Below, piece after piece: positions 23,770-52,220 of a stretch of DNA of 64,000 nucleotides; position 1 is the first letter of the stretch; every line of letters starts with the position of its first letter. The position numbers and the translations under genes are program-made. The stretch is from contig NZ_VOBA01000001.1 in NCBI RefSeq assembly GCF_008369165.1, forward strand, positions 1,853,630 to 1,917,629, written 5' to 3'. The notes under the pieces are model-generated. The model was not told the DNA's origin. It worked only from the letters and a program-made list of their open reading frames with translations, and did not search any database. This DNA comes from Dietzia sp. ANT_WB102. Its GTDB lineage: Bacteria; Actinomycetota; Actinomycetes; Mycobacteriales; Mycobacteriaceae.

Positions 23770-23817
23770 TTGGTCCAGCGATTCTCGCCAAATTGCTATC
23801 AAAGTGAAGTCAGTTCA
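23770..23817 (+). promoter_or_regulatory. Promoter and 13-bp operator, site a
   Basis: TTGGTC (23770-23775), an 18-base spacer and TGCTAT (23794-23799) form a plausible promoter. The operator TGAAGTCAGTTCA (23805-23817) starts 5 bases after the -10, where a bound repressor would block polymerase. It serves the oxidoreductase gene at 23891. Confidence 0.65.
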
Positions 23818-23890
23818 TTTAGGGTTGTGTGAGCTGTCCCACACAGGGCGTTCATTGGGGGCATCCCACACACCGGAAGGCGGGTCATTG

Positions 23891-24958
23891 ATGACTGATA
23901 CGGCACTGCACGGCAAGGCATTCGACTCGAGAGGGCGGGTCAATCGCGAGGTCCGGCTGGTGCGGCATCCCGACGGCGCACTCGCGGTGGGCGACCTGGA
24001 AGTGGTGCCCGCCGAGATGCCCGTCATGGCGCCTGGGCGTGTCCTGATCCGGAATCTTCTCCTGTCGGTGGATGCCGCCACGCGTCTGCGTCTTGATCCC
24101 ATCTCGCCTCCCGGCTACCTGCCGGCGCTCAAGGTGGGGGAGGCGCTGGCGGGAATGGTGGTGGGCGAGGTGGTCGAGTCAGACGTGGAAGGCTTTGCGC
24201 CCGGGGATCTCGTCCACCACGATCTCGGGTATCGCGACTACGCGCTGGTCGACCCGGGAAACCAGGCGCTGGGCGTGGCAGGGTCGCTGGCCAAATTGGA
24301 CAGCGAGTTGGGTCCGCCAGAACTCCAGGTGGGGCTGCTTGGAATGACTGGCCTCACGGCGTGGGCCGGGCTGTTCGAGGTGGCCTCGCTCAAGCCGGAG
24401 GACGTGGTATGGGTCTCCGCCGCCGCTGGCGCGGTGGGCAGTGTGGCGGCGCAGTTGGCCAAGGCGCACGGGTGTCGGGTGATCGGGAGTGCTGGTAGTG
24501 CGGAGAAGGTCGCCTATCTCACGGATACGCTCGGGCTGGATGCCGCATTCAACTGGCGTGATGGCCTGGATGGGCCACTGGCCGAGTTCGCTCCTGACGG
24601 TATCGATGTGTATTTCGACAGCGTGGGTGGGGAACATCTGCGGGCCGCGCTCGACCAACTTCGCCCGTACGGCCGGGTGGCTCTGTGTGGCGCGATCGCC
24701 GGGTACGACGGGCAGCCCCCGAGTGCGCCGGAAAACCTCTTCGCTGCGACAACCAAGGACCTGAACTTGCGTGGCTTTCTGGCGGGCACGTTCGCGGATC
24801 GACTCCCGGAGGCGCGGGCGCATCTGGCGGATCTGTGGGGGTCTGGCCGGTTGACGCTGGATCTCGCGCGGTACGAGGGGCTGGAGTCAGCCCCGCAAGC
24901 GGTCGTGGACATGCTGTCGGGGCGGACAATCGGCAAATGTGTGGTGGCCCTCGGGTGA
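23891..24958 (+). CDS. NADP-dependent oxidoreductase, zinc-free MDR family
   Basis: 355 residues, ATG at 23891 after GGAAGG. Medium-chain reductase of the leukotriene-B4-dehydrogenase/CurA type, which reduces activated C=C bonds or dehydrogenates. It lacks the zinc ligands of alcohol dehydrogenases. Visible: NLLLSVDAATRLRL, GLTAWAGLFEVASLKPEDVV, the nucleotide motif AAGAVGSVAAQLAKAHGCRV, YFDSVGGEHLRAAL and a C-terminal SGRTIGKCVVAL. First gene of the operator-bearing regulon, so it probably handles an enone or enoyl intermediate of that pathway. Confidence 0.85.
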   Translation: MTDTALHGKAFDSRGRVNREVRLVRHPDGALAVGDLEVVPAEMPVMAPGRVLIRNLLLSVDAATRLRLDPISPPGYLPALKVGEALAGMVVGEVVESDVEGFAPGDLVHHDLGYRDYALVDPGNQALGVAGSLAKLDSELGPPELQVGLLGMTGLTAWAGLFEVASLKPEDVVWVSAAAGAVGSVAAQLAKAHGCRVIGSAGSAEKVAYLTDTLGLDAAFNWRDGLDGPLAEFAPDGIDVYFDSVGGEHLRAALDQLRPYGRVALCGAIAGYDGQPPSAPENLFAATTKDLNLRGFLAGTFADRLPEARAHLADLWGSGRLTLDLARYEGLESAPQAVVDMLSGRTIGKCVVALG

Positions 24959-25362
24959 GCACATGCCTCGCCGGGCGATCGGGAAGGGTATGGCTCGCAA
25001 TCTCCACTCGGAAGGCGCGCGCGGGATGCTCCTTGCCTTCTAGTTGCGGGCAGTGTTGTCGGGCACGGAGGGCGAATCCGCCGCGAGCAGAGTGTGACCG
25101 CGGCAAGTCCTCGGTGTCGGGCCGGATTGGTGACGAGTCTCGATCGGACTCCTGCGGGGTCACCGCGATGTCGCCTGGCGTGGATTTCGTCGGCGTCGGC
25201 ATGATCGAGGTCTGGGAGTAGGGCAGGGACTGGCTGCTGTCGCGCGCAGCAGCCGACATGCCTCGTCTAAATCGCACACGTGGCGCGAGCCGATGCGGAG
25301 TTGTGGCGTAGCGGAGCCGCTCCGGCGAGACCGAAGCCACCTCTGCTCGACAGGCGAAGCAG
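24959..25362. other. Gene-free stretch
   Basis: About 400 bases between the MDR oxidoreductase and the broken NTF2-like gene. The open frames here lack start signals and recognisable domains. I see no promoter, repeat or terminator that I can support. It may be decayed coding DNA, given the relics on both sides. Confidence 0.4.
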
Positions 25363-25800
25363 TCAGCCCAGGACCCGGGGATCGCTGGCCTGGCAGTTGA
25401 CTGACTGGCGCCGGAGTGTGCTCTGCCAGCGCTCGGGGCGCCGCTTAATCCGATCGTCGTAGGTTCAGGCGACCGTGAACAGTCCCGGAGCCTCGTTGCG
25501 GACGTGCGGGGCGTGAAAGTGGCTCGACACCGTCACTCCGTCTTCAGTCACTTCCAGTAGAGGCGAACTCGCCAGGTGTTGGCTGGACTCCAGGGGGGCG
25601 AGAGCCCCGGCGCACACTCCGACGATCTCCGTCGGCCCGGTCGTGGCCGGGATGCCGACGAATTCCATGATCGCGTCGGGCAGGAACGCCGACTCGAGTC
25701 GATCCCGGGTCCGCCGGTCGAGCGCGTGGGCATAACGTGAGGTCAAGGACAGGGTCTCGATCCGGTCGTTGGTGGTCAGTGCGGTCTCGTGGCGGGGCAC
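25363..25800 (-). pseudogene. NTF2/SnoaL-like gene with in-frame stop
   Basis: GTG at 25800 with GGAG upstream gives RIETLSLTSRYAHALDRRTR, then AFLPDAIMEFVGIP and SSHFHAPHVRNEAPGLFTVA, then a TGA at 25465-25467. The same frame continues for 33 family-like codons (TYDDRIKRRPERW, then NCQASDPRVLG) to a second stop at 25363. One base change (Gly GGA to TGA) would explain it; the restored length, 145 residues, is normal for the family. The 111-residue product lacks the last two strands of the cone fold. Sequencing error or readthrough are alternatives. Confidence 0.65.
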
Positions 25801-25863
25801 ATTACGTCTCCGTTCGGCTTGTGTCGGATGCTGGCGGGGACGGCTTAGCGTGGCGACCAACCG

Positions 25864-25913
25864 TTGACAATGTGGTGTCACTCACATACGGTAAAAGAAG
25901 TGAGTTCAATTCA
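25864..25913 (+). promoter_or_regulatory. Promoter and 13-bp operator, site b
   Basis: TTGACA (25864-25869), exactly 17 bases, TACGGT (25887-25892), then operator TGAGTTCAATTCA (25901-25913) over the likely transcription start. It serves the small-protein/P450 operon starting at 25931. Confidence 0.8.
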
Positions 25914-25930
25914 GTCGAAGGGATGCTGGA

Positions 25931-26320
25931 ATGGCGGGCAGTAGCAACGAGGTGCGGGCCACCTCGGAGATGAAGATCAACGACGACGTAACGATTGACG
26001 AGCTCAGGTCGATCGTCGGCGATGTGAGCTCCAGTTCCTCGACAGAGGGAGAGCACATCCGTGGGCACAATTTCTACGTCGACGAAGAGGCCAGGATTCT
26101 CTTCGCTCATGAGCACTACGCGGACGCCGTGGCGATGCTCAGGCACCTCAAGGAGATGGACCAGGACAAGGTTGGACGACTCATGGCGTCCGTTGAGGTG
26201 CTCGATCTCCGGATCTACGGACCGATGAACGACGAATTGCACGGGCTCCTCGAGGGCTTCGGAAGCGTCCGGAAGTTCGACTTCGTGAGCGGCTTCACCC
26301 ACTTCGGAGGTGTCAAGTGA
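25931..26320 (+). CDS. Small dimeric alpha/beta-barrel protein, ABM-like
   Basis: 129 residues, ATG at 25931 after GAAGGGATG-type sequence. After about 40 polar residues comes GHNFYVDEEARILFAHEHYA, DAVAMLRHLKEMDQ, ASVEVLDLRIYGPMNDELHG and KFDFVSGFTHFGG. This pattern (aromatic strand, EHYAD.. helix, YG.MNDEL) resembles antibiotic-biosynthesis-monooxygenase-like small barrels. No catalytic role can be read. It is coupled to the P450 gene by a GTGA overlap and is the first gene behind operator b. Confidence 0.55.
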   Translation: MAGSSNEVRATSEMKINDDVTIDELRSIVGDVSSSSSTEGEHIRGHNFYVDEEARILFAHEHYADAVAMLRHLKEMDQDKVGRLMASVEVLDLRIYGPMNDELHGLLEGFGSVRKFDFVSGFTHFGGVK

Positions 26321-27591
26321 CGGCCAGCTACGACTACGAGAAGTTCTTCGGCCTGGACGCGGAGCAGCTCAAGTGCCCTCATACCGCTTTCGAGGAGGTG
26401 CAGTCGAAGTGCCCCGTCTCCCGCAGTGATGCGTTGGGCTTCTGGGTGGTGGCCGACCACGAGCATGCGCAAAAGGTGTTCAAGGACGCCACGGTGTTCT
26501 CGACCAAGAAGATGCTCGGTGAGCAAGTTTCCGACGAGTGGCAGCGCATGATTGACATGGCAGCCCAGCGTCCCGGGGCCAAAGAGGAACTTGGCGAAGA
26601 CTATGGGACGAGCGACCGGAAGGTCCTGCTCTTCGCCGACCCGCCGGAGCACGGCCGCCATCGTCGACTGATCATGGGCGCGCTCACACCGAACGCGCTC
26701 AAATCTTGGGCGCCGCGCATTGAGGAGACAGCCGACATCTTTGTCGGTGGGATCACCTCCGACGAGGAGGTGGAGTTCGTCGACGGCTTCGCTAACAAGT
26801 ACACGATGACCGTCATCGCAGACATTCTCGGTTTTCCACGGGACATGGTCCCGCAGATGCTCGATTGGGCCGAGGGATTCAACTCGATGGTCGGTAATCC
26901 CGACCAGACCGCGGAGCAGATCGAGGCGCTCGTCGACACCAGGTACGAATTCGACGCCTACTGCAACAAGCAGATCGACGATAGGGAGGCGAACCCGACC
27001 GAAGACCTCATCTCGAGGATCGTGAAGCTCAATGCCGCCAGCGACACCCCGCTCAGCCGGGACGACTTGTTCCAGATCCTCCAGTTGACCATGGTCGGCG
27101 GAAGTGAGACTTCCGCCACCGCGCTGTCCAAGATGATCGAGTATCTCGGCAAGAATCCCGAGATGTGGGCCGAACTGAAGACGGACACCGATCTGATTCC
27201 GCAGTTCATGGAGGAGATGCTGCGCATGTTCTCCCCGGTGCAGGGTTCGTTCCGAGCGGTCACCGAGGACATCGAGCTCGGCGGGCAGCAGCTTAAGGCT
27301 GGCGACATGCTCTGGGTGGGTATGGGCGCGTCGAACCGTGACCCCAAGGTGTTCGACGACCCCGACCGAATGGACATCGACCGAAAGCAGCTCGCGGCTA
27401 GCCACGTTGCGTTCGGTGGTGGTCCGCACGTCTGCCCAGGCACATCGTTGACCCGATTGGAGTTGCGGATGGTGCTGGAGAGGATCGTCACCCGGTTTTC
27501 CGGCGTCGAGCTGGTGGATCCGGATCCGGCAGCCAAGAAGAGCTTCAACTTCTATGGGCCCGCCGCACTTCCGGTGCGCTTCACCGCTTAG
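26317..27591 (+). CDS. Cytochrome P450 (first of two)
   Basis: 424 residues; GTG at 26317 overlaps the preceding stop. A soluble bacterial P450 that should insert one oxygen atom from O2 into an unactivated C-H bond. I-helix oxygen motif MVGGSETSATAL (about residue 265), ExxR in FMEEMLRMFSP, and the heme-thiolate signature FGGGPHVCPGTSL with Cys about residue 375. EHGRHRRLIMGALTP is the C-helix region. By eye this gene and its neighbours are less GC-rich than the surrounding genes. Electrons probably come from the ferredoxin and reductase at 30194-31399. Confidence 0.93.
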   Translation: MTASYDYEKFFGLDAEQLKCPHTAFEEVQSKCPVSRSDALGFWVVADHEHAQKVFKDATVFSTKKMLGEQVSDEWQRMIDMAAQRPGAKEELGEDYGTSDRKVLLFADPPEHGRHRRLIMGALTPNALKSWAPRIEETADIFVGGITSDEEVEFVDGFANKYTMTVIADILGFPRDMVPQMLDWAEGFNSMVGNPDQTAEQIEALVDTRYEFDAYCNKQIDDREANPTEDLISRIVKLNAASDTPLSRDDLFQILQLTMVGGSETSATALSKMIEYLGKNPEMWAELKTDTDLIPQFMEEMLRMFSPVQGSFRAVTEDIELGGQQLKAGDMLWVGMGASNRDPKVFDDPDRMDIDRKQLAASHVAFGGGPHVCPGTSLTRLELRMVLERIVTRFSGVELVDPDPAAKKSFNFYGPAALPVRFTA

Positions 27592-27675
27592 CGCGGTGCC
27601 GGTATCGCGCCCCGATCTCATTCCCGGCCAGCGGCAGGAAAGTCGCCCTTGGTGCCGAACCGAAAGGACTCTCTG

Positions 27676-28050
27676 ATGGCTTCAGTGGAGAATCAGCCAA
27701 CGTATCTCTTTGCGCTCTACCGTTGGGCAGGTACCTCCCCCGAGGAGTTCCGCGACCACTATTTGAGCAAGCATGCCGACATTGGCAAGTCCATCCCGGG
27801 TGTGGCCTGGTGGCACACCTTCCTTAATAACAATCCGATGATGAACTGGGGGCTCCCGGAGGGGGCCCCTAAGCCGGACGCGTTCTCAATCATGGCGTTC
27901 GAGTCGGAGGAGGCGCTGCAGAAGGCTCCAGAGAGCGAGGGATGGGCGGCCGCCAACGGCGACAACACCGGCTTCGTACAGCACATCGACGTGTACGAGG
28001 TGTCCCGGGTCCAATTGGTGGAGGAGGGGGAGGGGAGTCCGGCTGGGTAG
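27676..28050 (+). CDS. EthD-like small protein
   Basis: 124 residues from the ATG at 27676, with AAAGGA upstream. LFALYRWAGTSPEEFRDHYL and SKHADIGKSIPGVAWWHTF show the EthD pattern (xFxxxW...H....IPG) of dimeric ferredoxin-like barrels. EthD itself was found in an ether-degrading P450 operon, where it is essential for an unknown reason. The link with a P450 here fits that. A paralogue sits at 49428. Confidence 0.75.
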   Translation: MASVENQPTYLFALYRWAGTSPEEFRDHYLSKHADIGKSIPGVAWWHTFLNNNPMMNWGLPEGAPKPDAFSIMAFESEEALQKAPESEGWAAANGDNTGFVQHIDVYEVSRVQLVEEGEGSPAG

Positions 28051-28298: not shown

Positions 28299-28350
28299 TT
28301 GCATCACACTGTGACAGTGGTTACAGTCAAACCTAAGTGAATTCAGCTCG
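28299..28350 (+). promoter_or_regulatory. Promoter and 13-bp operator, site c
   Basis: TTGCAT (28299-28304), 17 bases, TACAGT (28322-28327), then operator variant TGAATTCAGCTCG (28338-28350). Same geometry as site b. The spacer also contains CACTGTGACAGTG, a second small palindrome. Confidence 0.75.
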
Positions 28351-28370: not shown

Positions 28371-28841
28371 ATGTCAGACGATCAGCGCCGAAAGAACGTG
28401 GAGTTGGTGCGTGCCTACACGGACGCTCTCAACTCCTGGGACATCGAGACGATGCGGGAACTCTCCACCGAGGACGTGGTCTTCGAGCTCCCGTTTCGCC
28501 CGCCTAGCTTCGGCCGTGAGACCGTGGGGCGCGACGCCTACATGGAGGTCCTCGCCCAGGCCCGTGACCACATGATCGATGGGTCCGAGAACCTGCACGA
28601 TCTGCAGCTGGACACGCTCGCGTCGGACCCCGACACCGTCATCGCCACCTACAAGAGCGATATGACGCTCCGCAGCGGTGTGAGGTACGCGAACGAGTAC
28701 ATCTCGCGGTTCGTCTGTCGCGATGGCAAGGTCTCCCGCTTCGTCGAGTACTACGACTCGATCATCCTGTTCCGCGCGCTCGGCGGGACCCTTCGGGAAG
28801 CCGACGAGTCGGAATTGCTGCCCGAGGGGCTCAAGTCCTGA
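28371..28841 (+). CDS. NTF2/SnoaL-like protein (intact)
   Basis: 156 residues, ATG after GGAGGAG. Cone-shaped alpha+beta fold: NVELVRAYTDALNSWDIETM, DVVFELPFRPPSFGRETVGR, ANEYISRFVCRDGKVSRFVE and YYDSIILFRALGG. Family members include ketosteroid isomerase, limonene epoxide hydrolase and polyketide cyclases, so an isomerase, hydrolase or dehydratase role on a ring compound is possible. Catalytic residues cannot be assigned from sequence alone. It opens the second P450 operon behind operator c. Confidence 0.8.
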   Translation: MSDDQRRKNVELVRAYTDALNSWDIETMRELSTEDVVFELPFRPPSFGRETVGRDAYMEVLAQARDHMIDGSENLHDLQLDTLASDPDTVIATYKSDMTLRSGVRYANEYISRFVCRDGKVSRFVEYYDSIILFRALGGTLREADESELLPEGLKS

Positions 28842-28902
28842 TCGCCAGTCGGCCCCGTTGACTTCATCCCTCTTCCCACACATCTGCTAGGAGCCACCCC
28901 TC

Positions 28903-30162
28903 ATGGGTAAGGAACTGCCCGATCCGAAGACCGTCGACGCCAACCAGCCGAAGTGCCCCTTCGTCGACATGTGGTCCGACGAGTACAACGACAAGAACCT
29001 GGAGATCCTCAAGCATCTTCGCGAGGAGCACGACCTCGCCTTCCACAAGCAGGGCAACACCACCGTCCCCCTGGTCACGCGGTACAACGACCTGTGGAAG
29101 ATCCACCGCGACTGGAGGACGTTCCAGTCTGGTCGTGCCGCCTCCCATCTGGCCGACCGCCGCTACGACGACCCGAATGACGACCCGACCTTTATCCCAC
29201 TCGATACCGACCCGCCGGTCCACAGTGAGTGGCGCAAGATTCTCGAGCCGTTGATGACGCTCAAGAAGATGGAGGCGCACGCGGAGCTGATCGAGAGCAT
29301 CGCAAATGATTTGCTCGAAGGGCTCGAGGGTCGCACCAGGTTCAACGTCATGGACGAGTTCGTCCGCCCACTGCAGGCTCGCGCGATCTTCGCCGTGATC
29401 CTCGGCGTGCCCGCGGATAGTGACCGGATTCTCCAGTTCTCGGCGTGGGCACAGGACGCGCTGATCGTCCCGGAGCGCGCGGTTGAGGCCTTCGGCGAGC
29501 TAAGTGCCGCGCTGCTCGAAATCCTCCGGGAACGTCGGGAGAACCCGCGAGGTGAGGACGACATCGTGACGGTGCTGGCGAACTGCCGACCCGGTGGTGA
29601 GGTCCCGGACGACGGGGACCTCATCAAGATCATGATCGCGTTGACGCTTGGCGGGCTCGAATCCACGGGCACCGTCCTGAGCGGCACTATCCATCACATG
29701 GCCACCCATCCGGAGGACCTCAAGGAGTTGCAGGACGACATGTCTCTGCTCGACGAGGCCATCGAGGAAGCGCTACGGCTGTTCGTCAATGTGACGCTCA
29801 CTCAGCGGACGGTAACCAAGGAGACGACCCTCAACGGCTACGATCTCAAGCCCGGAGACAAAGTCTGGAACCTCCCAGGCTCGGCCAACCGCGACGAATC
29901 AGTGTTCCCCGACGGCGACAGCTGGAACGTGCGTCGCGAGAACAAGCGCCATGTCTCTTTCGGCGCCGGCATCCACCGTTGCCTCGGGTCGAACCTGGCT
30001 CGGATCTTCCTCCGGGTCGCCTTCACGGCCGTCCTCACCCGGATGCCGGGCGTGAGCCTCGTTCCGGACCAGGAGATCCACACCCACTCCATGCCGACCC
30101 GTGGCCTCACCGAGTTCGAGGTCACCGTCGACGAGATCACCCCCGTCGCGACCACCGCCTGA
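28903..30162 (+). CDS. Cytochrome P450 (second of two)
   Basis: 419 residues, ATG at 28903. I-helix ALTLGGLESTGTVL carries Glu-Ser where Glu/Asp-Thr is usual, so proton delivery to bound oxygen may differ. ExxR is in EEALRLFVN and the heme ligand in FGAGIHRCLGSNLAR (Cys about residue 358). HSEWRKILEPLMTLKKMEAH is the C-helix region. It is followed 31 bases later by a [3Fe-4S] ferredoxin gene and then a reductase, its probable electron donors. The substrate is unknown; the regulon context suggests a hydrophobic alicyclic compound. Confidence 0.93.
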   Translation: MGKELPDPKTVDANQPKCPFVDMWSDEYNDKNLEILKHLREEHDLAFHKQGNTTVPLVTRYNDLWKIHRDWRTFQSGRAASHLADRRYDDPNDDPTFIPLDTDPPVHSEWRKILEPLMTLKKMEAHAELIESIANDLLEGLEGRTRFNVMDEFVRPLQARAIFAVILGVPADSDRILQFSAWAQDALIVPERAVEAFGELSAALLEILRERRENPRGEDDIVTVLANCRPGGEVPDDGDLIKIMIALTLGGLESTGTVLSGTIHHMATHPEDLKELQDDMSLLDEAIEEALRLFVNVTLTQRTVTKETTLNGYDLKPGDKVWNLPGSANRDESVFPDGDSWNVRRENKRHVSFGAGIHRCLGSNLARIFLRVAFTAVLTRMPGVSLVPDQEIHTHSMPTRGLTEFEVTVDEITPVATTA

Positions 30163-30193
30163 GCCCGGTTACTCATACCCGAGAGGACACACC

Positions 30194-30388
30194 ATGAAGG
30201 TCAAGATCGACCACGAGTTCTGCGTGGGCCACGCCCGTTGCTACACGCTGGAGCCCGACTACATCGCCGAGGACGAGCGCGGCCGCGGAGTCGTCCGGGA
30301 GGACGCGCCCGAGATGTCACCCGAGACCGCCCGACGGCTGGTCAGGGCGTGCCCCGAGTCCGCGATCTCCATCGTGCGGGAATCCTGA
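30194..30388 (+). CDS. [3Fe-4S]-type ferredoxin
   Basis: 64 residues from the ATG at 30194. Cys at residues 10 and 16 (FCVGHARC) and in RACPESAI, with His-Ala in place of the fourth ligand, is the usual pattern of single-cluster P450 ferredoxins. Position between a P450 and a reductase gene indicates electron transfer to the P450s. RBS AGAGGACAC-like sequence lies upstream. Confidence 0.9.
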   Translation: MKVKIDHEFCVGHARCYTLEPDYIAEDERGRGVVREDAPEMSPETARRLVRACPESAISIVRES

Positions 30389-30397
30389 AGAAGACCG

Positions 30398-31399
30398 ATG
30401 ACCATGCTCCAAGACCCCATGCGGGCCGACATCGTCCATCTCGGAGGCGGTGGCTCCGGTGAACTGTCGACCGACGCGATCGTGACGAGTCGTCGCGACG
30501 TGGCGGACGGCGTCGTCGAGCTCGTCCTCGCGGCAGCCGACGGCAGCGATCTCCCACGGTGGGAGCCCGGCGCTCATATCGACATCGTCCTCGACGACGA
30601 CACGATCCGGCAATACTCCCTGTGCGGGGACCCCGCCGACCGAAAGACGCTCCGTGTGGCGATCTTGCTCGAAGCGGAGGGGAGGGGAGGATCTCGTCGA
30701 ATCCACGAGCAGCTCCACTCGGGGGTATCCGTCGAGCTGTCCGGCCCCCGCAATCACTTCCCGCTCCACGCGTCCTCCCGCTACCTGTTCATCGCGGGCG
30801 GGATCGGGGTGACCCCGCTGATTCCGATGATGCGGGCGGCCGAGGCCGCCGGAGCCGAGTGGCAATTCGTGTACGGAGGTCGGAGCGAAGCGACGATGGG
30901 GTATGTCGATGAGCTACGTGAGCTGGGGGAGCGGGTCGTGATCTGGCCGCAGGACACCCACGGGCTGATCGATCTCGAGGACCTACTCGGAACGCCAGAA
31001 GAGGGGACCCTGGTTTACAGCTGCGGACCGGAACCCCTGCTTGCGGCAGTCGAGGAGTGGTGCGCGTCGTGGCCCCCGGGAGCCCTTAATGTCGAGAGGT
31101 TCTCTGCCGTCGAGATCGACACGTCCGAGGACACCGGATTCGACGTAGAGCTCCGGGAGACCGGCACCACGGTTCACGTCAACAAGGACCAGACGATCCT
31201 TGAAGTGGTCACCGAGGCCGGCGTGTACGTGCCGACCTCGTGCACCGAGGGGACCTGCGGATCCTGCGAGACGCCGATCCTCGAGGGCACCGCCGAGCAC
31301 CGCGACGTCGTGCTGTCCCCGGAAGAGCAGGAAGCCCAGGAAACCATGATGATCTGCGTCTCTCGCGCATCCTGTCCCCGGCTGGTGTTAGACCTCTAG
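30398..31399 (+). CDS. Ferredoxin reductase, phthalate dioxygenase reductase type
   Basis: 333 residues. Flavin-binding barrel with RQYSLCGDP (about residue 68), NAD(P) domain with LFIAGGIGVTPLIPMM, then the C-terminal plant-type [2Fe-2S] domain with Cys in TSCTEGTCGSCETPI and MMICVSRAS. These enzymes carry electrons from NAD(P)H through flavin to a built-in iron-sulfur cluster. It lies 10 bases after the ferredoxin gene, so the chain NADH, reductase, ferredoxin, P450 is encoded together. Whether the fused cluster feeds the P450 directly is open. Confidence 0.9.
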   Translation: MTMLQDPMRADIVHLGGGGSGELSTDAIVTSRRDVADGVVELVLAAADGSDLPRWEPGAHIDIVLDDDTIRQYSLCGDPADRKTLRVAILLEAEGRGGSRRIHEQLHSGVSVELSGPRNHFPLHASSRYLFIAGGIGVTPLIPMMRAAEAAGAEWQFVYGGRSEATMGYVDELRELGERVVIWPQDTHGLIDLEDLLGTPEEGTLVYSCGPEPLLAAVEEWCASWPPGALNVERFSAVEIDTSEDTGFDVELRETGTTVHVNKDQTILEVVTEAGVYVPTSCTEGTCGSCETPILEGTAEHRDVVLSPEEQEAQETMMICVSRASCPRLVLDL

Positions 31400-36345: not shown

Positions 36346-36735
36346 TCAGGGCCGGGTGGAGGACTCGAGGGTGGGTGACGCCAGTCCGAGCTCGGGGTCG
36401 AACGCGACCTGGTAGCCGGTGATGAGCCCGTCGTCGCCGATCCTCGCCGAGGCGAGGAAGTGGCCGGTGATGGTGACCCCGTCCTCCACGACGGCGCCGT
36501 AGACGAACTCGAGTTCGCCCTCCCGCGTGGCGTGGGTGGGGACGTGACGGCGGTCGACAGTGCCGCGCCCCTCCAGGTACTCACGAACCCCGTGGCGGTT
36601 CTGGCCACGGACCGCGGTTCCGGGGAGGATGATGGCGAACGAGACCTCGGGGGCCAGGAGTTCGAGTCCGGCGTCGAGATCTCCCGCGTCGATCCGCGCG
36701 TAGTAGGTGACGAGTGTGGAATCAGACGGCGACAT
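36346..36735 (-). CDS. NTF2/SnoaL-like protein (intact)
   Basis: 129 residues. TLVTYYARIDAGDLDAGLEL, then LAPEVSFAIILPGTAVRGQN, EYLEGRGTVDRRHVPTHATR and GHFLASARIGDDGLITGYQV show the complete fold. There is no ribosome site before the ATG; operator d (36740-36752) ends five bases upstream, so the mRNA is probably leaderless and the operator overlaps the promoter core. Function unknown within the family (isomerase, hydrolase or dehydratase). Confidence 0.75.
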   Translation of the reverse strand: MSPSDSTLVTYYARIDAGDLDAGLELLAPEVSFAIILPGTAVRGQNRHGVREYLEGRGTVDRRHVPTHATREGELEFVYGAVVEDGVTITGHFLASARIGDDGLITGYQVAFDPELGLASPTLESSTRP

Positions 36736-36739
36736 GAAT

Positions 36740-36752
36740 CGAACTTAGTTCG
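36740..36752. promoter_or_regulatory. 13-bp operator, site d
   Basis: CGAACTTAGTTCG, a perfect palindrome about the central base, 5 bases before the start of the minus-strand NTF2-like gene. It shares the intergenic space with site e for the divergent acyl-CoA dehydrogenase. Confidence 0.65.
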
Positions 36753-36775: not shown

Positions 36776-36826
36776 TTGCGTGATCTGTCTCACTGTGCTG
36801 TTATGGGATGAACTGAACTCGGCTCA
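36776..36826 (+). promoter_or_regulatory. Promoter and 13-bp operator, site e
   Basis: TTGCGT (36776-36781), 17 bases, TGTTAT (36799-36804), then operator TGAACTCGGCTCA (36814-36826). It serves the acyl-CoA dehydrogenase gene at 36853. Confidence 0.75.
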
Positions 36827-38498: not shown

Positions 38499-38550
38499 CC
38501 TCCGGAACGGCCCCGGCTCAGACCAATTCGAACCAAGTTCAACCAAAAGG

Positions 38551-38597
38551 TTGACGAGACCGACACCACACTGTAGACATGAACTGAATCCAGTTCA
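38551..38597 (+). promoter_or_regulatory. Promoter and 13-bp operator, site f
   Basis: TTGACG (38551-38556), 17 bases, TAGACA (38574-38579), then TGAATCCAGTTCA (38585-38597), itself inside the larger palindrome TGAACT-N6-AGTTCA (38580-38597). It serves the long operon starting at 38619. Confidence 0.8.
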
Positions 38598-43209: not shown

Positions 43210-43237
43210 CGCGCACACCCGAGAAACGAGACAGATC

Positions 43238-45222: not shown

Positions 45223-45986
45223 TGGCCACCCCAGCAGAACTGTTCGATCTCTCCGGACGAGTCGCCGTCGTCACCGGTGCGTCCTCCGGTCTGGGTGACG
45301 GATTCGCCCGCACCCTCGCCGCCGCCGGGGCCACCGTGGTGGCCGCGGCCCGCCGCGCCGACCGTCTTGAGGCGCTCGCCGCGGACCTGCCCGGGGTGGT
45401 CCCGGTGGAGTGCGACATCACGGTTCCGGCCGATCGGGAGCGGCTCGTCGGTGTCGCGGCCGAGATCAACGGTGGGGTTGACATCTTGGTGAACAACGCC
45501 GGACGACCCGGACCGCCGGACGCGCTGACGGAGAGCGCCGAGGAGTTCGACGACATCCTCCGGGTCAACCTCACCTCCGGCTTCCACCTGTCGGTGGCGG
45601 CGGTCAAGGCACGCCAGGATGATCTCGGGATGTCGATCATCAACGTCTCCTCGGTGGTCGGACTGGTCTCTACCGCGCCGATCGGGGGAGCCGGGTACGC
45701 GGCCAGCAAGTCCGCGGTGATCGGCGCGACCCGCGAACTCGCCGGACAGTGGGGGCGTCAGGGCATCCGGGTCAACGCGGTCGTGCCCGGATGGTTCGAT
45801 ACCGAGATGACCGACGGACTCTTCACGAACGACAAGTCGGCCGGCTGGGTGCGGCGGAACTCGATGCTCGGTCGCGGTGGTCGCGAGGGCGAAGTCGACG
45901 GCGCGGTGCTGTTCCTGGCCTCCGACGCGTCGAGCTACGTCACCGGACACGTGCTGACCGTGGACGGGGGATGGACCGCGCGATGA
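45222..45986 (+). CDS. Short-chain dehydrogenase/reductase (SDR)
   Basis: 254 residues, sharing one base with the previous stop. VTGASSGLGDGFARTLAA, LVNNAGRPG, Ser in IINVSSVVG and Tyr/Lys in AGYAASKSAV, with VLTVDGGWTAR at the end. Complete catalytic set. It is similar in layout to the SDR at 57971 of the second block (ASSGLG..FAR). Overlaps the zinc alcohol dehydrogenase gene by 4 bases. Confidence 0.88.
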   Translation: MATPAELFDLSGRVAVVTGASSGLGDGFARTLAAAGATVVAAARRADRLEALAADLPGVVPVECDITVPADRERLVGVAAEINGGVDILVNNAGRPGPPDALTESAEEFDDILRVNLTSGFHLSVAAVKARQDDLGMSIINVSSVVGLVSTAPIGGAGYAASKSAVIGATRELAGQWGRQGIRVNAVVPGWFDTEMTDGLFTNDKSAGWVRRNSMLGRGGREGEVDGAVLFLASDASSYVTGHVLTVDGGWTAR

Positions 45987-47050
45987 CCGCCACGGAGACC
46001 GCCGCCGAGCTGCCCCACGGGATGCGGGCACTCAGGCTCCACGAATGGGGTGTTGCGCCGTCGCTGGACCGCATCCCGGTGCCTCAGCCGGGGCCGGGCC
46101 AGGTTCTCCTGCGCGTCGACGCGGCAGGTCTCTGCCATTCCGACCTGCACATCATGGACGCCGACGCCGGGGTGCTGCCCTACACACTGCCGTTCAACCT
46201 CGGCCACGAGGTGATGGGCGCCGTCGTGGCCGTGGGCGACGACCGGGACCGTGAATGGATCGGGCGCTCGTGTGGGGTGCACGGTGTCTGGTCGTGCGGG
46301 GAGTGCCGGGCGTGCGCGGCCGGACGGGACAACTACTGCGTCGAACTCAACGGCCCGATCGGCTGCGGAACGGGTTACGACGATGGACTCGCGGACTTCA
46401 TCCTCGTGCCGTCCACCCGGCATCTCGTGGAACTGGATCCGGCGGCCGGTCCCGAGGTGGCGCCGATGACCGACGCCGGGCTCACCGCCTACCACGCCGT
46501 CGTGTCCCAGCCCGTCGACCTCCGTGGTGCCATCGTGGTGGTGGTCGGCATCGGCGGCCTCGGACATCTCGCACTGCAGGTCCTGACCCTGCGCTTGCCG
46601 TCGCTGGTCCTCGCCGTGGACCCGCGTGAGTCCGCCCGCGAGCTCGCCCTGCGACTGGGCGCCCATCATGCCGTGGCCTCGGTCGCGGAGGTGGACGCAC
46701 TCGCCGCCGAGCTGTCCGGCGGCTCCGGGGCCGATCTCGTGCTGGACTTCGTCGGCGCACCGGACACCATGGGCGGTGCACCGGGCCTCATGGCCGGAGG
46801 CGCCTGCCTCGTTGTGGTGGGCTCGGCCGGCGGGAGCCTGACCGTGACCAAGGGCGGCGCGCTGCCGCGCGGCTGGCGCGTGGAGGCCCCGTTCTGGGGC
46901 CCGCATCACCACCTGCAGGACGTACTCGATTTGGCAGTGGCCGGTGACCTGGCGGCGGTCGTGGAGCAGCGTCGTCTGGACGAGGTCCTCGAGGCTTATC
47001 AGGACCTGCGGGAAGGCCGGGCGGACGGACGCCTCGTCGTCGTCCCCTGA
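45983..47050 (+). CDS. Zinc-dependent alcohol dehydrogenase
   Basis: 355 residues. Catalytic zinc ligands in AAGLCHSDLHIMD and NLGHEVMG; structural zinc Cys set CGECRACAAGRDNYC; Rossmann motif VVGIGGLGHLALQVL. Oxidises an alcohol or reduces an aldehyde with NAD(P). With the P450s and the aldehyde dehydrogenase it could complete alcohol-aldehyde-acid conversion. Last gene of the overlapping chain; the ligase gene follows after 85 bases. Confidence 0.9.
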   Translation: MTATETAAELPHGMRALRLHEWGVAPSLDRIPVPQPGPGQVLLRVDAAGLCHSDLHIMDADAGVLPYTLPFNLGHEVMGAVVAVGDDRDREWIGRSCGVHGVWSCGECRACAAGRDNYCVELNGPIGCGTGYDDGLADFILVPSTRHLVELDPAAGPEVAPMTDAGLTAYHAVVSQPVDLRGAIVVVVGIGGLGHLALQVLTLRLPSLVLAVDPRESARELALRLGAHHAVASVAEVDALAAELSGGSGADLVLDFVGAPDTMGGAPGLMAGGACLVVVGSAGGSLTVTKGGALPRGWRVEAPFWGPHHHLQDVLDLAVAGDLAAVVEQRRLDEVLEAYQDLREGRADGRLVVVP

Positions 47051-47135
47051 CACGCGTCACCACCGACGCCGGACCCTCGGCGGCTCCGTCACACCCCACC
47101 CACATCCTTCACACACCATCGAGGAGAACGCGACC

Positions 47136-48638
47136 ATGAAGCAGCTGGCCCGGGACGTCACAGAGCGTGCCGCCCGAACCCCCGACGCCATCGCGGTCGT
47201 CGACGGAGACGGCGCGCACACGACCGCCGAGGTCTTGGACGCTGCGCGGGAGCTCGCGACCGTGCTCGAGTCGGCCACCGACGGCCCCGCCACCGTCCTC
47301 GTCCGCGCGGACAACTCCTGGCGCACCGTGGCGGCCGCTCTCGCCGTCGGGCTGTCTGGAGGTCTGCTCGCGGTGATGAGCGGGCACGCCACCCGGTCCG
47401 AATTCGACGTCGCGATGGAGGACCTCCGGCCCGACGCCGTCGTCGCCGACGGCCCGCTCTGCCAGGTGTGGAACCTTGCCGGGCACGGCTTCGCCCCGGC
47501 CGGCGCGGTCCTGTCCGGGTGGGAGGTGCACGGCCCGTCGGACGGGCGGTCGCGTGGCGTCGACCGCTGGAAGGGCGGGTCGGTGGCGGCGATGACCTCC
47601 GGCTCGACCGGGCGTCCAAAGTGCGTCATCCAGACTGAGGACGCCCTGCGGTACGCGGGGGAGGCGACCATCGACGCGGTGGGGCTGCAGCCGGGTGATG
47701 CGATCGGCGCGCTTGTGCCGCTCTCGTCCGCAGCGGCGATCTGCTTCGGGATGTACCTGCCCACCATGCTCGGCAGCCCGATGGTCGCCGACGCCAAGTG
47801 GAATCCGGAGAACGCCATCGCCGTCCTCCGTGACAACAAGGTCGCGTGGACGATGCTCGTTCCCACCATGGCTCTTCAGCTCACCCTCGTCGACGATGCC
47901 GACGGCGCCCTGTCCGCGATGAAGGCCATGACGGTCGGTGGCGGACCCATGAACCAGAACTCGTTGCGCTCCGCGGAGCTCACACTCGGCACCACGTTCC
48001 TGCGGGTGTTCGGGATGTCCGAGGCGCTGGGACACACGACGCCGTCGCCGGAGGACGACGTCGAGGTGCGGCTCGGCCGCGACGGCCGTCCCTTCCCCGG
48101 GACGGTGTCCCGGGTCGTGGACGAGAACGGCGGGGAGCTCGGGGTGGGCCAGGTCGGATCGTTGCAGGTCAAGGGGCCGTCGGTGTTCCTGGGTTATGCG
48201 CGCGGAGGTGAGCCCGTGGCCCCCGACGTGACCGAGGACGGGTTCCTGGCCACCGGGGACCGGGCCGTGCTCTTCGACGACGGCTGCGTGAGCATCCGGG
48301 GCCGTGAGAAGGACCTCATCATCCGCGGTGGGCGGAACATCGACATCAACGAGGTGGAGGCCGCGGTGGCCGGCATCCAGGGCATCCACCAGGTGTGCGT
48401 GGTCCCCGTCCCGGATCCAGTACTGGGGGAGCGGGCGGCCGCACTGGTGGTCGCGGACGGTGAGGCCCCGACTCTGGAGGACATCCGTCGGGAGCTCGAG
48501 GCCGCGGACTTCCCCAAGTTCAAGTGGCCGGAGTTCGTGATCGCCGTCGACGCACTTCCCCAGTCCCGGGTCGGCAAGCTCGACCGGTCCGGCGCCGCGG
48601 AACTCGCTGCGACGCTCGCCAGCGACACCGCGACCTAG
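47136..48638 (+). CDS. Acyl-CoA ligase (AMP-forming)
   Basis: 500 residues, ATG after GAGGAG. ANL superfamily: AMTSGSTGRPKCVIQTEDAL (ATP loop), FLRVFGMSEALGHTTPS, LATGDRAVLFDDG (hinge Asp region), IRGREKDLIIRGGRNIDINE and the final catalytic Lys in PQSRVGKLDRSG. It should activate a carboxylic acid as CoA thioester, the entry to the beta-oxidation-like genes upstream. Substrate cannot be told from sequence. Confidence 0.88.
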   Translation: MKQLARDVTERAARTPDAIAVVDGDGAHTTAEVLDAARELATVLESATDGPATVLVRADNSWRTVAAALAVGLSGGLLAVMSGHATRSEFDVAMEDLRPDAVVADGPLCQVWNLAGHGFAPAGAVLSGWEVHGPSDGRSRGVDRWKGGSVAAMTSGSTGRPKCVIQTEDALRYAGEATIDAVGLQPGDAIGALVPLSSAAAICFGMYLPTMLGSPMVADAKWNPENAIAVLRDNKVAWTMLVPTMALQLTLVDDADGALSAMKAMTVGGGPMNQNSLRSAELTLGTTFLRVFGMSEALGHTTPSPEDDVEVRLGRDGRPFPGTVSRVVDENGGELGVGQVGSLQVKGPSVFLGYARGGEPVAPDVTEDGFLATGDRAVLFDDGCVSIRGREKDLIIRGGRNIDINEVEAAVAGIQGIHQVCVVPVPDPVLGERAAALVVADGEAPTLEDIRRELEAADFPKFKWPEFVIAVDALPQSRVGKLDRSGAAELAATLASDTAT

Positions 48639-48641
48639 CGG

Positions 48642-48684
48642 TTGCGGCGGGTGACTTCAGCCAAGACAATATGAGTTGAACTCA
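48642..48684 (+). promoter_or_regulatory. Promoter and 13-bp operator, site g (TetR self-control)
   Basis: TTGCGG (48642-48647), 17 bases, GACAAT (48665-48670), then TGAGTTGAACTCA (48672-48684), a 13-bp palindrome broken only at its centre base. It lies in front of the TetR gene, as expected for an autoregulated repressor. Confidence 0.75.
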
Positions 48685-48733
48685 CTTTCGCTTAATCTTG
48701 ATCGATAATCACCGAGCACGGGGGTACTACGTG

Positions 48734-49348
48734 ATGACGGCCAGCACCAAGACCGAGGGACCGCGATCCAAGCGCAAGGTCATCCTCGACGCCGCCGTGG
48801 CGAACTTCGGCAGTGTCGGTTACGAACACACGAAGTGGGCGACCGTCGCGAAAGAGGTGGGGATCGGTCAGACCGCGCTCTACCACTACTTCGAGTCCAA
48901 GGCGCACTGTCTGCTGACCATCATGACCGCCGAGCTCACCCGATATCACGAGAGGTTTGAGGCCGCGATCGACGGCGCCTCCGACGTCGAGTCCGAGCTC
49001 AGGGCAGTGATCTCGAGCGCCTACGACATCACCGAGAGCGAGGCGCTCCAGGCGCGCATCCTCCTGCATCACATCGACATGCTCGCGACGCCACGGTCAT
49101 CGGCGCGCGAGGAGGAGGAGCGGGTCCGCGCGCGCGAGATGGTGCGAGTGGTCGAAAAGGCCTGGTCCGATCTGCTCGGGCGCGGGATGGACTCCGGGGA
49201 GTTCCCGCGGCGGGACGAGAAGGAACTCGGTCGGTTCGTGCTGGGCCTCATCAACTCGGTGTGGAACTGGTACCGGCCTGCCGGTGGCCGCAGTCTGTCC
49301 GAAATCGCGGAGTCGGTCACCGACGCCTGCGTGAGGCTGGTGCACTGA
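48734..49348 (+). CDS. TetR-family regulator, candidate regulon repressor
   Basis: 204 residues from the ATG at 48734 (a GTG one codon earlier and a TTG further up are possible). The DNA-binding domain is KRKVILDAAVANFGSVGYEH, TKWATVAKEVGIGQTALYHY, FESKAHCLL. The ligand domain ends in GLINSVWNWYRPAGGRSLSE, similar in style to KstR2-like regulators that bind CoA thioesters. Operator g overlaps its promoter and nine variants of this site lie before other genes of the region, so this is the likeliest repressor. Other regulators elsewhere in the genome cannot be excluded. Confidence 0.85.
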   Translation: MTASTKTEGPRSKRKVILDAAVANFGSVGYEHTKWATVAKEVGIGQTALYHYFESKAHCLLTIMTAELTRYHERFEAAIDGASDVESELRAVISSAYDITESEALQARILLHHIDMLATPRSSAREEEERVRAREMVRVVEKAWSDLLGRGMDSGEFPRRDEKELGRFVLGLINSVWNWYRPAGGRSLSEIAESVTDACVRLVH

Positions 49349-49399: not shown

Positions 49400-49412
49400 T
49401 GAAGTGAATTCA
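49400..49412. promoter_or_regulatory. 13-bp operator, site h
   Basis: TGAAGTGAATTCA, flanked to TTGAA-N5-TTCAA, 16 bases before the EthD-like gene at 49428. Promoter hexamers are not clear. Confidence 0.65.
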
Positions 49413-49427
49413 AGTGTGGAGGCATTC

Positions 49428-49754
49428 ATGTACAACCTGATCGTCATGGCGGCCAAGCCGAGCGAGTGGACCCACGAGCAGTTCATCGAGTGGTGGCGGG
49501 GCGAGCACGCCGACGTCACCTACCCGTTGCCCGGCCTGCGCCGCTGGTCCCACACCGCCGTCAAGGAGAGCGGGGGGAACAAGCACTCCCTCGGTTGGGA
49601 CGGGGTGTCGGTCCTCAGCTTCGACTCGAAGGAGGACTATGACGCGATGCTCGAGAGCCCGGAGTGGGCCAAGGCCGCCGAGCACGTCGGCTCCATGGGG
49701 GGCCGCGCCATCATGGTGATGGGTGACGAGCAGGTCATGGTCTCGCAGTCGTGA
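49428..49754 (+). CDS. EthD-like small protein (second)
   Basis: 108 residues, ATG at 49428 after GTGGAGG. YNLIVMAAKPSEWTHEQFIE, WWRGEHADVTYPLPGLRRWS shows the EthD pattern (W..EH......PGL). Dimeric ferredoxin-like barrel, unknown catalytic role. Coupled to the MBL-fold gene (GTGA). Paralogue of the protein at 27676, under the same operator type. Confidence 0.78.
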   Translation: MYNLIVMAAKPSEWTHEQFIEWWRGEHADVTYPLPGLRRWSHTAVKESGGNKHSLGWDGVSVLSFDSKEDYDAMLESPEWAKAAEHVGSMGGRAIMVMGDEQVMVSQS

Positions 49755-50782
49755 CCACCCAGGGGGTGGACTGGGCCGAGATCGGGACCTATCAGGTGGC
49801 CGACTCGGTGCACCGTATCCCCCTGCCGATGCCGCAGGACGGCCTGCGTGCGATCAATGTCTACGTGGTCCGCGGGGTCGGCGGGGTGTCCCTCATCGAC
49901 GCCGGCTGGAACGTCCCCGGCAACCTGGAGATCCTCCGGGACGGTCTGGCGTCGATCGGTCTGGCCCTCGAGGACATCGACGACATCCATGTCACGCACA
50001 TCCACCGTGACCACTACACGATGGGCCCCGAACTGCGTCGGCGGGTCGGTGCGCGGGTGCACCTGGGTCGGATGGAGGAACCGGGGCTCACCGCGCTCCG
50101 TAACCTCGCGAACACGGTGCCGGCTGATTCGTTAGAGCAACTCGGTCGCGCCGGGGCGCCCGGCGTCGCCGAGGCCGCGCGGATGCAGGCGCACACCGAG
50201 GAGTGGTTCGAGTCCGATTGGGAGCTGCCGGACGAGTGGACCGACCAGGGTCCGGTGTCTGTGGCGGGCCGGGACATGCGGGCCACGGTGACGTCCGGCC
50301 ACACCAAGGGTCATCTGGTCTTCGACGACCCCCGCCTCGGTGTGACCTTCACCGGCGACCACGTGTTGCCCAGAATCTCGCCGTCGATCGGGTTCGAGCT
50401 GGGGGGCTGGGACAACCCCCTCGGCGACTATCTGGCCTCGTTGGAGGGGATGCTTCGCCGTCCTGATGCGGTGATGCTGCCGGCACACGGCGCCGTCGGT
50501 GGGAGTGTCCACGGACGGGTCCGGGAGCTCCTCGAGCACCACGATGCGCGGCTCGACGCGACCCGGCGGGTCCTGCTCGGGTCTCCCGGCGCCACCGGAC
50601 ACGAGGTGGCGGGCTCGCTGCCCTGGACCCGCCGGGAGCGGACGTTCGACGAACTGGACGACTTCAACCAGATGATCGCGGTCTGTGAGACGATGGCCCA
50701 CCTCGATGTCCTGGTCCACCGGGGCGTGGCCGTCGTGGATCACGTCGACGGCGACGGGGTGCAGCGCTTCATCGCCGCCTGA
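49751..50782 (+). CDS. MBL-fold metallohydrolase
   Basis: 343 residues; GTG overlaps the previous stop. Metal motif HxHxDH in VTHIHRDHYTMG (about residue 79), further ligands in TSGHTKGHLVF, FTGDHVLPR and LPAHGAV. Arrangement like glyoxalase II-type hydrolases, with a C-terminal helical extension of about 90 residues. In a CoA-based pathway it might hydrolyse a thioester, lactone or ester; this is inferred from family breadth. Convergent with the SDR at 50877. Confidence 0.88.
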   Translation: MTTQGVDWAEIGTYQVADSVHRIPLPMPQDGLRAINVYVVRGVGGVSLIDAGWNVPGNLEILRDGLASIGLALEDIDDIHVTHIHRDHYTMGPELRRRVGARVHLGRMEEPGLTALRNLANTVPADSLEQLGRAGAPGVAEAARMQAHTEEWFESDWELPDEWTDQGPVSVAGRDMRATVTSGHTKGHLVFDDPRLGVTFTGDHVLPRISPSIGFELGGWDNPLGDYLASLEGMLRRPDAVMLPAHGAVGGSVHGRVRELLEHHDARLDATRRVLLGSPGATGHEVAGSLPWTRRERTFDELDDFNQMIAVCETMAHLDVLVHRGVAVVDHVDGDGVQRFIAA

Positions 50783-50857: not shown

Positions 50858-50876
50858 TCGCCGTCGGTCGCCCGCG

Positions 50877-51626
50877 TCAGCGGGCGGTCCAGCCGCCGTC
50901 CGCGTAGACCTCCGCACCGGTCATGAACCCGGCGTCGTCGCTGGCGAGGAACGCGACACTGCCGGCGATCTCGGCGGGTGTCCCGAGGCGGCCCATGGGG
51001 GTGTTGGCCACCATCCCGCGGTGACGCTCGGAGCCCTCGTAACGCTCCAGGAGCTGGGGGGTCTCGATGAAGCCCGGATGTAGCGAGTTCACCCGGACGC
51101 CCCTGCCCGCCCAGTGGATCGCGGCGTTCTTCGTCATGGTCCGGACCGCGCCCTTGGCCGCGTGGTAGGCGAAGCTGTTGCCGAAGCCGCCGACGCTGCC
51201 GAGAATCGAGCAGACGTTAACGATCGCCCCGCCCCCGGTGCGCTCGATCGCGCCTCCGGCGTGCTTCATGCCGAGCCATGCGCCGGTCTGGTCGACGTCG
51301 ATCACCCGTTGCCAGTGCTCGGGAGTCTCCTCTTCGACTGACTTGAGGCTGCCGATCGCGGCGTTGTTGCCCAGGACGTCGATGCGGCCGTGCGCCTCGA
51401 GCGTGCGGTCGACGGCGTCCTCCCAGTCGCCCTCCGACGAGACGTCGAGCGACAGTGCGAGGTGCGGGCCGGAGGGGAGTGAGGCGACCAGGTCGTCCAC
51501 GGGGCAGCCGGCGAGGTCGGCGGCGACGATCACGGCCCCCTCGTCGGCGAGGCGGCGGCAGATCTCCGAACCGATTCCTCCGGTGGCACCGGTGATCAGG
51601 ATGATCCGATCGGTGAAGCGTTCCAT
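50877..51626 (-). CDS. Short-chain dehydrogenase/reductase (SDR)
   Basis: 249 residues. ITGATGGIGSEICRRLADEG, with Asp after the second strand (VAADLAG) favouring NAD, LGNNAAIGSL, Ser in VNVCSILGSV and Tyr/Lys in FAYHAAKGAV, ending GAEVYADGGWTAR. Complete catalytic set. Preceded by operator i, so it belongs to the same regulon although on the opposite strand. Confidence 0.88.
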   Translation of the reverse strand: MERFTDRIILITGATGGIGSEICRRLADEGAVIVAADLAGCPVDDLVASLPSGPHLALSLDVSSEGDWEDAVDRTLEAHGRIDVLGNNAAIGSLKSVEEETPEHWQRVIDVDQTGAWLGMKHAGGAIERTGGGAIVNVCSILGSVGGFGNSFAYHAAKGAVRTMTKNAAIHWAGRGVRVNSLHPGFIETPQLLERYEGSERHRGMVANTPMGRLGTPAEIAGSVAFLASDDAGFMTGAEVYADGGWTAR

Positions 51627-51681
51627 GTGTTGCCCTCTCGAGGTGATGGGGGCAGGAGCGTTCGCCGCGAAAGCGACAAAA

Positions 51682-51699
51682 CAAACTCAGTTCAGTATA
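51682..51699 (-). promoter_or_regulatory. -10 element and 13-bp operator, site i
   Basis: On the minus strand TATACT (51694-51699) runs directly into the operator TGAACTGAGTTTG (51682-51694). It lies between the MaoC stop and the SDR start, giving the SDR its own controlled promoter. Confidence 0.65.
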
Positions 51700-51716
51700 G
51701 GCGTGTGGGTCGGCAA

Positions 51717-52178
51717 TCAGGCGGGGAACGCCACCATCAGGGCGTCGGCGACGCACGCCGGGGTGTCGCTGCCCTCGATGTCGATCGTGTACCGGACGCA
51801 TCCCAGGACGCCGCCGCCCGAGGTCCCGCGCGTCCACTTCACGCGGCCCCGGGCACGGATGCGGTCTCCGGGGCGGACGAACGCGGGGAACCGGACCTTG
51901 TCCAACCCGTAGTTAATCGCGCGGCCCGAGGAATCGAAGGTGAACAGTTCGGAGCTGAGCCGGGGGATGAGCGCCAGCGTGAGGTAACCGTGGGCGACGG
52001 TCGAACCGATTTCAGAGCCCGCGGCGCGCTCGGCGTCGACGTGGATCCACTGGTGGTCCTCGGTGGTGTCCGCGAAGTCGTCGATCCGGCCCTGGGTCAT
52101 GGTGAACCAGTCGCCGGCGCCGAGGTCGGTACCGGCGGAGTCCTTGAACTCCGCCACGGTTCGGAAGGTCACGGGCAT
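51717..52178 (-). CDS. MaoC-family (R)-enoyl-CoA hydratase
   Basis: 153 residues. Hot-dog fold with the hydratase motif IDDFADTTEDHQWIHVDAER (Asp and His catalytic) and GSTVAHGYLTLALIPRL. Adds water to a 2-enoyl-CoA to give the (R)-3-hydroxy product. The order MaoC then SDR on one strand suits consecutive hydration and oxidation. Operator j lies in the divergent gap upstream. Confidence 0.92.
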   Translation of the reverse strand: MPVTFRTVAEFKDSAGTDLGAGDWFTMTQGRIDDFADTTEDHQWIHVDAERAAGSEIGSTVAHGYLTLALIPRLSSELFTFDSSGRAINYGLDKVRFPAFVRPGDRIRARGRVKWTRGTSGGGVLGCVRYTIDIEGSDTPACVADALMVAFPA

Positions 52179-52207
52179 GGGGCTCTCCTGTCGTCAGGCT
52201 GCGTGAC

Positions 52208-52220
52208 TGAACTGAGTTCA
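52208..52220. promoter_or_regulatory. 13-bp operator, site j
   Basis: TGAACTGAGTTCA, matching the consensus at every fixed position, and extended to CTGAACT-G-AGTTCAG. It lies between the divergent MaoC and LysR-effector genes and can control both. Confidence 0.8.

Follow-up and report, generated by a model that had tools for sequence, protein, structure and literature searches.

In the genome of Dietzia sp. ANT_WB102 (3.28 Mb), a 64-kb stretch, here called the window, carries a catabolic gene cluster that extends over both sides of coaA-glyA. The cluster encodes two cytochromes P450 with a ferredoxin system, a set of acyl-coenzyme A (CoA) enzymes and several small proteins, and short palindromic repeats lie in the gaps between its genes. 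It also includes a gene at 48734 for a TetR-family protein, with a repeat in front of it. A first-pass annotation had described the repeats as ten copies of a 13-bp palindrome and assigned them to this protein. In this work, the repeats, the protein and the proposed regulon were compared with related genomes. All positions are window coordinates unless a locus is named.

The predicted operator unit

Each of the ten 13-mers was confirmed at the position given for it, with a single occurrence apiece, and all ten fall in gaps of independent gene calls made with a simple gene caller. None had been noticed inside genes. This agrees with a scan by a matrix built from the ten sites, in which the best in-gene score was 12.1 compared to 15.4-22.9 for the sites themselves. 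In a leave-one-out version of the matrix, the site at 36740 dropped to 11.6, and the other nine kept scores of at least 14.7. The count of ten was correct for real, exact, intergenic copies, but it missed a weaker eleventh copy at 38529.

The unit itself had to be revised. In the first-pass annotation, the operator was 13 bp long and had three bases at its centre, whereas the sites share an even-centred 18-bp consensus, TGAACTGA-WT-TCAGTTCA, from which the 13-mers are slices in two registers. The S in the centre of the 13-mer results from the mixing of these registers. The 18-mer consists of four elements, TGA-TGA-TCA-TCA, in 5-bp steps, and two 13-bp palindromes overlap within it, offset by 5 bp. 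Its clearest copy is TGAACTGAATCCAGTTCA at 38580-38597. A partner match was found 5 bp from each of the ten 13-mers within the top 40 of the matrix scan, with scores of 9.9-17.9 at seven sites and just 6.6-7.7 at three.

A non-circular test set was taken from loci around orthologues of the 48734 protein, for which 80 named loci, under 17 genus names, were used of 110 found. From the 79 of these with gene calls, 69 separate intergenic sites were picked on their left 13 bases alone, with one row per site. The fourth element, which was not selected, was retained, with T at position 16 in 86% of the sites, C or T at 17 in 85% and A or G at 18 in 77%. The mirror bases at positions 14 and 15 were G in 52% and T in 57%, and the outer bases were weaker (T21, 58%; A-1, 57%). 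Because selection on the left 13 bases alone still retains the fourth element, the comparison shows the predicted operator as a palindrome of 18 bp with an even centre, whose outer A/T bases are weaker. The partner matches and the retained fourth element led us to reject the shorter operator of 13 bp with three central bases. De novo dyad counts in 47 non-redundant TetR upstream regions gave 27 for TGA-N7-TCA (1.0 expected) and 17 for TGA-N12-TCA (1.4 expected).

Occurrence in the genome and across actinobacteria

With up to three mismatches, TGAACTSAGTTCA matched 16 times in the window compared to 5.5 expected, and none of 100 shuffles reached 16. That this enrichment is no more than about threefold is explained by the 13-mer not being the true unit. 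At the same tolerance, the 18-mer TGAASTGAWTTCASTTCA gave eight strand matches at four places in the window (shuffle mean 0.04), and these are its only places in the whole genome (reversed-pattern control, 0). The first-pass annotation had suggested a genome-wide scan with a matrix; in this pattern scan of the whole genome, the 18-mer was confined to the window and not spread over other genomic DNA. Several operators within a single gene cluster, as seen here with the 18-mer at up to three mismatches, are a mark of a local TetR repressor. Shorter patterns were less selective. TGARYTSARYTCA with at most one mismatch occurred at 15 places in the genome, 10 of them in the window, where two overlapping pairs leave eight separate sites (control, 7), and TGAACTSAGTTCA with at most two mismatches occurred at 25 places, 8 of them in the window (control, 8). 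The sole exact TGAACTSAGTTCA of the genome lies in the site at 52208. The five TGARYTSARYTCA places outside the window with at most one mismatch look like chance matches. Their contexts, as read from translations, are a LysR/LysE-like pair, a position beside a carotenoid-type dehydrogenase gene, a gap near an IclR-like gene, a position after a cdsA-like gene and a gap between cytochrome-complex genes.

Conservation was scored site by site on stretches from five Dietzia relatives, a site being counted when it stood before the orthologous gene. Nine of the ten sites recur in front of the same genes in other Dietzia, as seen in Table 1. The site at 23800 fell outside the comparison; homologues (50-52%) of the zinc-type oxidoreductase behind it adjoin operators in two other loci (L114 and L125). 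The comparison places the predicted operators before roughly nine transcription units within a single catabolic cluster. It likewise supports the proposed reach of the regulon on either side of coaA-glyA, where P450, acyl-CoA and small-protein operons would be controlled. Four sites had been placed 1-9 bases downstream of a -35/-10 pair. In our analysis, five of the ten (25901, 28338, 36814, 38585 and 48672) follow a -35/-10-like pair at a distance of 1-10 bases; the pairs have 17-base spacing and match the promoter hexamers at 7-9 of 12 bases.

Table 1. Predicted operators and associated genes of the cluster (SDR, short-chain dehydrogenase/reductase)
Feature	Position	Strand	Genes or content	Conservation and remarks
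Operator	23800..23817		before zinc-type oxidoreductase gene 23891-24958 (+)	in matrix from ten sites; orthologous gene not in the Dietzia stretches fetched
Operator	25896..25913		before 129-amino-acid protein, P450 and EthD-like genes (25931-28050)	3 of 3 relatives with gene fetched
Operator	28333..28350		before SnoaL-like, P450, ferredoxin, ferredoxin reductase and aldehyde dehydrogenase genes (28371-33034)	3 of 3 relatives with gene fetched
Operator	36735..36752		faces SnoaL-like gene 36346-36735 (-)	5 of 5 relatives; weakest of ten in leave-one-out
Operator	36809..36826		before acyl-CoA dehydrogenase gene 36853-37977 (+)	5 of 5 relatives
Eleventh, weaker operator-like copy	38529..38546		51 bp upstream of 38580 site	matrix score 11.0; counterpart in 4 of 5 relatives
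Best 18-bp operator	38580..38597		before main acyl-CoA operon	5 of 5 relatives; 1 mismatch to consensus
Main acyl-CoA operon	38613-48638		enoyl-CoA hydratase, OB-fold/ChsH2-like, thiolase-like, two acyl-CoA dehydrogenases, phosphotransferase, two SDRs, alcohol dehydrogenase, acyl-CoA ligase	
Operator	48672..48689		before TetR gene itself	5 of 5 relatives; -10-like hexamer ends 1 base before site
TetR-family repressor gene, proposed regulator	48734..49348	+	204 amino acids; TetR_N and TetR_C_24 domains (Pfam)	
Operator	49400..49417		before EthD-like/metallo-beta-lactamase-fold hydrolase operon (49416-50782)	4 of 5 relatives
Operator	51677..51694		before SDR gene 50877-51626 (-)	5 of 5 relatives
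Operator	52208..52225		between MaoC-like gene 51717-52178 (-) and LysR-effector-domain gene 52246-52962 (+)	4 of 5 relatives

Next, the 18-mer was followed across genomes. Orthologues of the 48734 protein (E up to 1e-30) were present in 47 of 301 family genomes, our own included. The 18-mer with at most two mismatches occurred in 40 of these 47 compared to 34 of the 254 genomes without the TetR gene (Fisher p 2.9e-22, a value that overstates independence, the genomes being related). Of 23 Dietzia genomes, 11 carry the TetR gene and hold 0-7 forward-strand sites with at most three mismatches (median 4); by the same count, nine of the 12 without it have none, and the other three have 1, 1 and 2.

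The ten-site matrix was then run on the 80 named loci, with L138 and L139 outside its counts. At a score of at least 16, there were 246 intergenic and 21 genic matches, compared to 0.35 intergenic and 0.9 genic for 20 permuted matrices (largest, 10). Intergenic DNA makes up about 9% of these loci; one locus (L078), for which the gene caller gave no genes, was counted as intergenic with its seven matches, also in the counts at threshold 12 given below. The first-pass annotation had suggested looking for the motif near orthologues in related genomes, and it is strongly enriched there. A threshold of 12 gave 304 matches, of which 258 precede a called gene and 38 are genic. The genes most often behind the matches are homologues of enoyl-CoA hydratase (38), TetR (37), EthD (35), SnoaL (25), SDR (24) and acyl-CoA dehydrogenase (16), and 141 have no homologue among the window genes. 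Together, these comparisons show that the predicted 18-bp operator goes with the 48734-type TetR gene across actinobacteria.

Of the 80 loci, 64 contain at least six of eight core cluster genes, and 14 have none or one. Ten of these 14 cluster-poor loci were examined, and nine retain the site upstream of the TetR gene, the exception being L064. In L062 (Dietzia natronolimnaea) and L064 (D. cercidiphylli), the TetR gene still adjoins glyA in the absence of the catabolic cluster; its upstream site persists in L062 and has been lost from L064. In another genome (G293), some 290 kb separate the TetR orthologue from two good sites (L164, at 6255 and 8184). Therefore, some genomes may carry a distant second part of the regulon.

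The cluster of this strain also differs from that of its relatives. In the relatives, the counterpart of the window DNA up to about 38096 is the acyl-CoA dehydrogenase gene together with the beginning of a nitroreductase-like gene. The DNA after this point matches the end of an ATP-binding cassette (ABC) transporter ATPase gene, which in the relatives is found 12.4 kb (G160) or 13.1 kb (G034) farther on. An open reading frame at 37981-38460 spans the junction and joins the nitroreductase-like start to the ATPase end. Absent from this strain are, among others, genes for a transporter, SDRs, a flavin adenine dinucleotide (FAD) dehydrogenase, an old-yellow-enzyme-type reductase, an alcohol dehydrogenase, two solute-binding proteins and a permease, and the extra 12-13 kb of the relatives carries further operators. 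Apparently, this strain has lost part of the predicted regulon, namely an importer and several redox genes. At the edge of the cluster, the gene at 52246-52962 with a LysR substrate-binding domain, in which Pfam found no DNA-binding domain, stays beside the MaoC-like gene in Dietzia relatives.

The proposed repressor and its circuit

The TetR_N domain (PF00440) of the 48734 protein scored 44.2 bits against a cut-off of 24. The AlphaFold2 model of the protein is all-helical, with nine helices and a mean predicted local distance difference test score of 91.5. A helix-turn-helix domain, a fold of about nine helices and a palindromic operator overlapping promoters, including its own, place the protein in the TetR/AcrR family, the operator being read from sequence only. 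The nearest named orthologues are from Dietzia (78-83%). Across 30 orthologues, a single position varies between G43 and M64 of the DNA-binding domain and the rest is invariant; the recognition helix of the model (residues 46-52) lies inside this segment.

The first-pass annotation had proposed one regulon under the 48734 protein, with its own site. The co-occurrence of gene and 18-mer, the matrix matches, the conservation of the sites and the recognition helix all support this proposal. We consider it very probable that the sites are operators of the 48734 protein, which would be an autoregulated repressor dedicated to the cluster. The best reading of the protein is a FadR/KstR2-like local repressor of a catabolic cluster with two P450s, a ferredoxin system and acyl-CoA enzymes.

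Several observations weigh against this assignment. The evidence is entirely comparative, we infer the ligand, and the relatedness of the genomes inflates the Fisher test. The 18-mer occurs in the 34 family genomes without the TetR gene mentioned above and is missing from 7 of the 47 with it. Most Streptomyces loci have a weak site or none before the TetR gene, while their other sites are good, and L064 has none there. One of the 20 permuted matrices hit a total of 225 at threshold 12. Also, two family genomes that lack the TetR gene have near-perfect 18-mers immediately before an enoyl-CoA hydratase gene (L158 at 6244 and L159 at 6278). These 18-mers could perhaps belong to another regulator of the same specificity and, therefore, the specificity may not be unique to 48734-type proteins.

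This leads to the possibility that several related TetR proteins share the operator and that the cluster is under overlapping control, with the 48734 protein as one regulator among others. The identical 8-bp half-sites of the 16-bp operator proposed for AbyC of the abyssomicin cluster, in the part of PMC3625739 that deals with it, would fit such sharing. We regard this as unlikely, as the next-best homologues of the 48734 protein in the same genome are only 21-29% identical. Another possible explanation, and a still less probable one, is that the sites belong to a second TetR-family protein (53032) or to the LysR-effector-domain protein (52246), which would control the cluster from its edge. 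Both genes do lie at this edge and the site at 52208 faces the 52246 gene, but Pfam finds only a LysR substrate-binding domain in the 52246 protein, the 53032 promoter has no site (best matrix score, 3.9) and 53032 homologues (at least 45% identity) occur in just 6 of the 80 loci, all Dietzia, while the motif is also found in other genera. The siteless promoter and the restriction to Dietzia speak against 53032 as the main regulator. Finally, a chance origin or a non-regulatory repeat family, which might account for the roughly threefold excess of the 13-mer and for the five places outside the window, is barely credible in view of the 18-mer enrichment, the permuted-matrix controls in other genomes and the site-by-site conservation.

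If the 48734 protein is the repressor, the following circuit can be proposed. With the substrate absent, a TetR dimer would sit on the operator just downstream of the -10 element and block transcription; two dimers are conceivable because the 18-mer holds two overlapping palindromes. A CoA-thioester intermediate, probably the product of the acyl-CoA ligase of the cluster (47136), would bind the C-terminal domain and release the repressor, and the P450, acyl-CoA and accessory operons would be switched on together. The profile relatives of the protein suggest an acyl-CoA ligand, as do the acyl-CoA genes in the cluster and its ligase.

A broader model is tentative, and we judge it somewhat more likely to be wrong than right. 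It holds that one TetR lineage, with a nearly fixed recognition helix and the 18-bp operator, governs across the 17 genus names a modular pathway for a cyclic, perhaps terpenoid, carboxylic acid. A constant acyl-CoA core would be joined to exchangeable front ends, which are P450 modules here and ABC importers, an enoate reductase or an FAD dehydrogenase elsewhere, with two dimers on the overlapping palindromes and a CoA-thioester of the pathway as the signal. The proteins tested against NCBIfam for naming the pathway gave no match above cut-offs, and literature on the gene set, on Dietzia TetR proteins and on abscisic acid in Rhodococcus yielded nothing usable. Across environmental actinobacteria, where this unnamed pathway is widespread, the operator could serve as a marker for the pathway genes, and the repressor-operator pair as a sensor of the pathway substrate. 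The assignment to 48734 predicts binding to the 18-bp site and release by a CoA-ester, both of which can be checked by simple binding assays.

Comparison with known regulators

Bacillus FadR and the actinobacterial KstR and KstR2 repress beta-oxidation-type or steroid genes and respond to acyl-CoAs. The KstR2 operator, AnCAAGnnCTTGnT, is of the CAAG-NN-CTTG type, and the 18-mer is unlike it. The operator of Bacillus FadR is of the TGAATGA type, which resembles the 18-mer in outline but differs in spacing. The solved chains nearest to the 48734 protein by profile include KstR2, FadR and DarR. Although FadR is also its best named NCBIfam profile, the protein stays far below the equivalog cut-offs of Bacillus FadR (NF053878; 53.9 bits, cut-off 200) and KstR (NF033703; 42.2 bits, cut-off 280).

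No publication on this operator or regulon was found in searches that covered comparative-genomics papers on TetR regulons and, for operator strings, open-licence PMC, where among the matches listed (2, and 20 of 146) only the AbyC 16-mer was similar. They are apparently undescribed, but the kind of circuit is already known. In the part of the AbyC report concerned (PMC3625739), the likely operator, TGAACTGATCAGTTCA, is a single site in an antibiotic cluster of Verrucosispora maris. Compared on operator sequence, it has the same half-sites as the 18-mer but is 16 bp long and lacks the central AT. The operator of Thermus thermophilus FadR, as given in the relevant section of PMC5597230, differs from the 18-mer.

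The closest parallel in arrangement is FadRSa of Sulfolobus acidocaldarius. The sections of PMC6449355 on its regulon describe a TetR-family repressor of one 30-kb lipid-degradation gene cluster, with few genomic sites, a dyad-symmetric 16-bp motif and binding as one dimer or two, according to the operator. FadRSa is archaeal and has another operator and gene set, and the acyl-CoA response and two-dimer binding that belong to it are proposals here. Judged from these sections, what the two systems would have in common is a local TetR repressor of one catabolic cluster that acts through few genomic sites with a dyad-symmetric motif.

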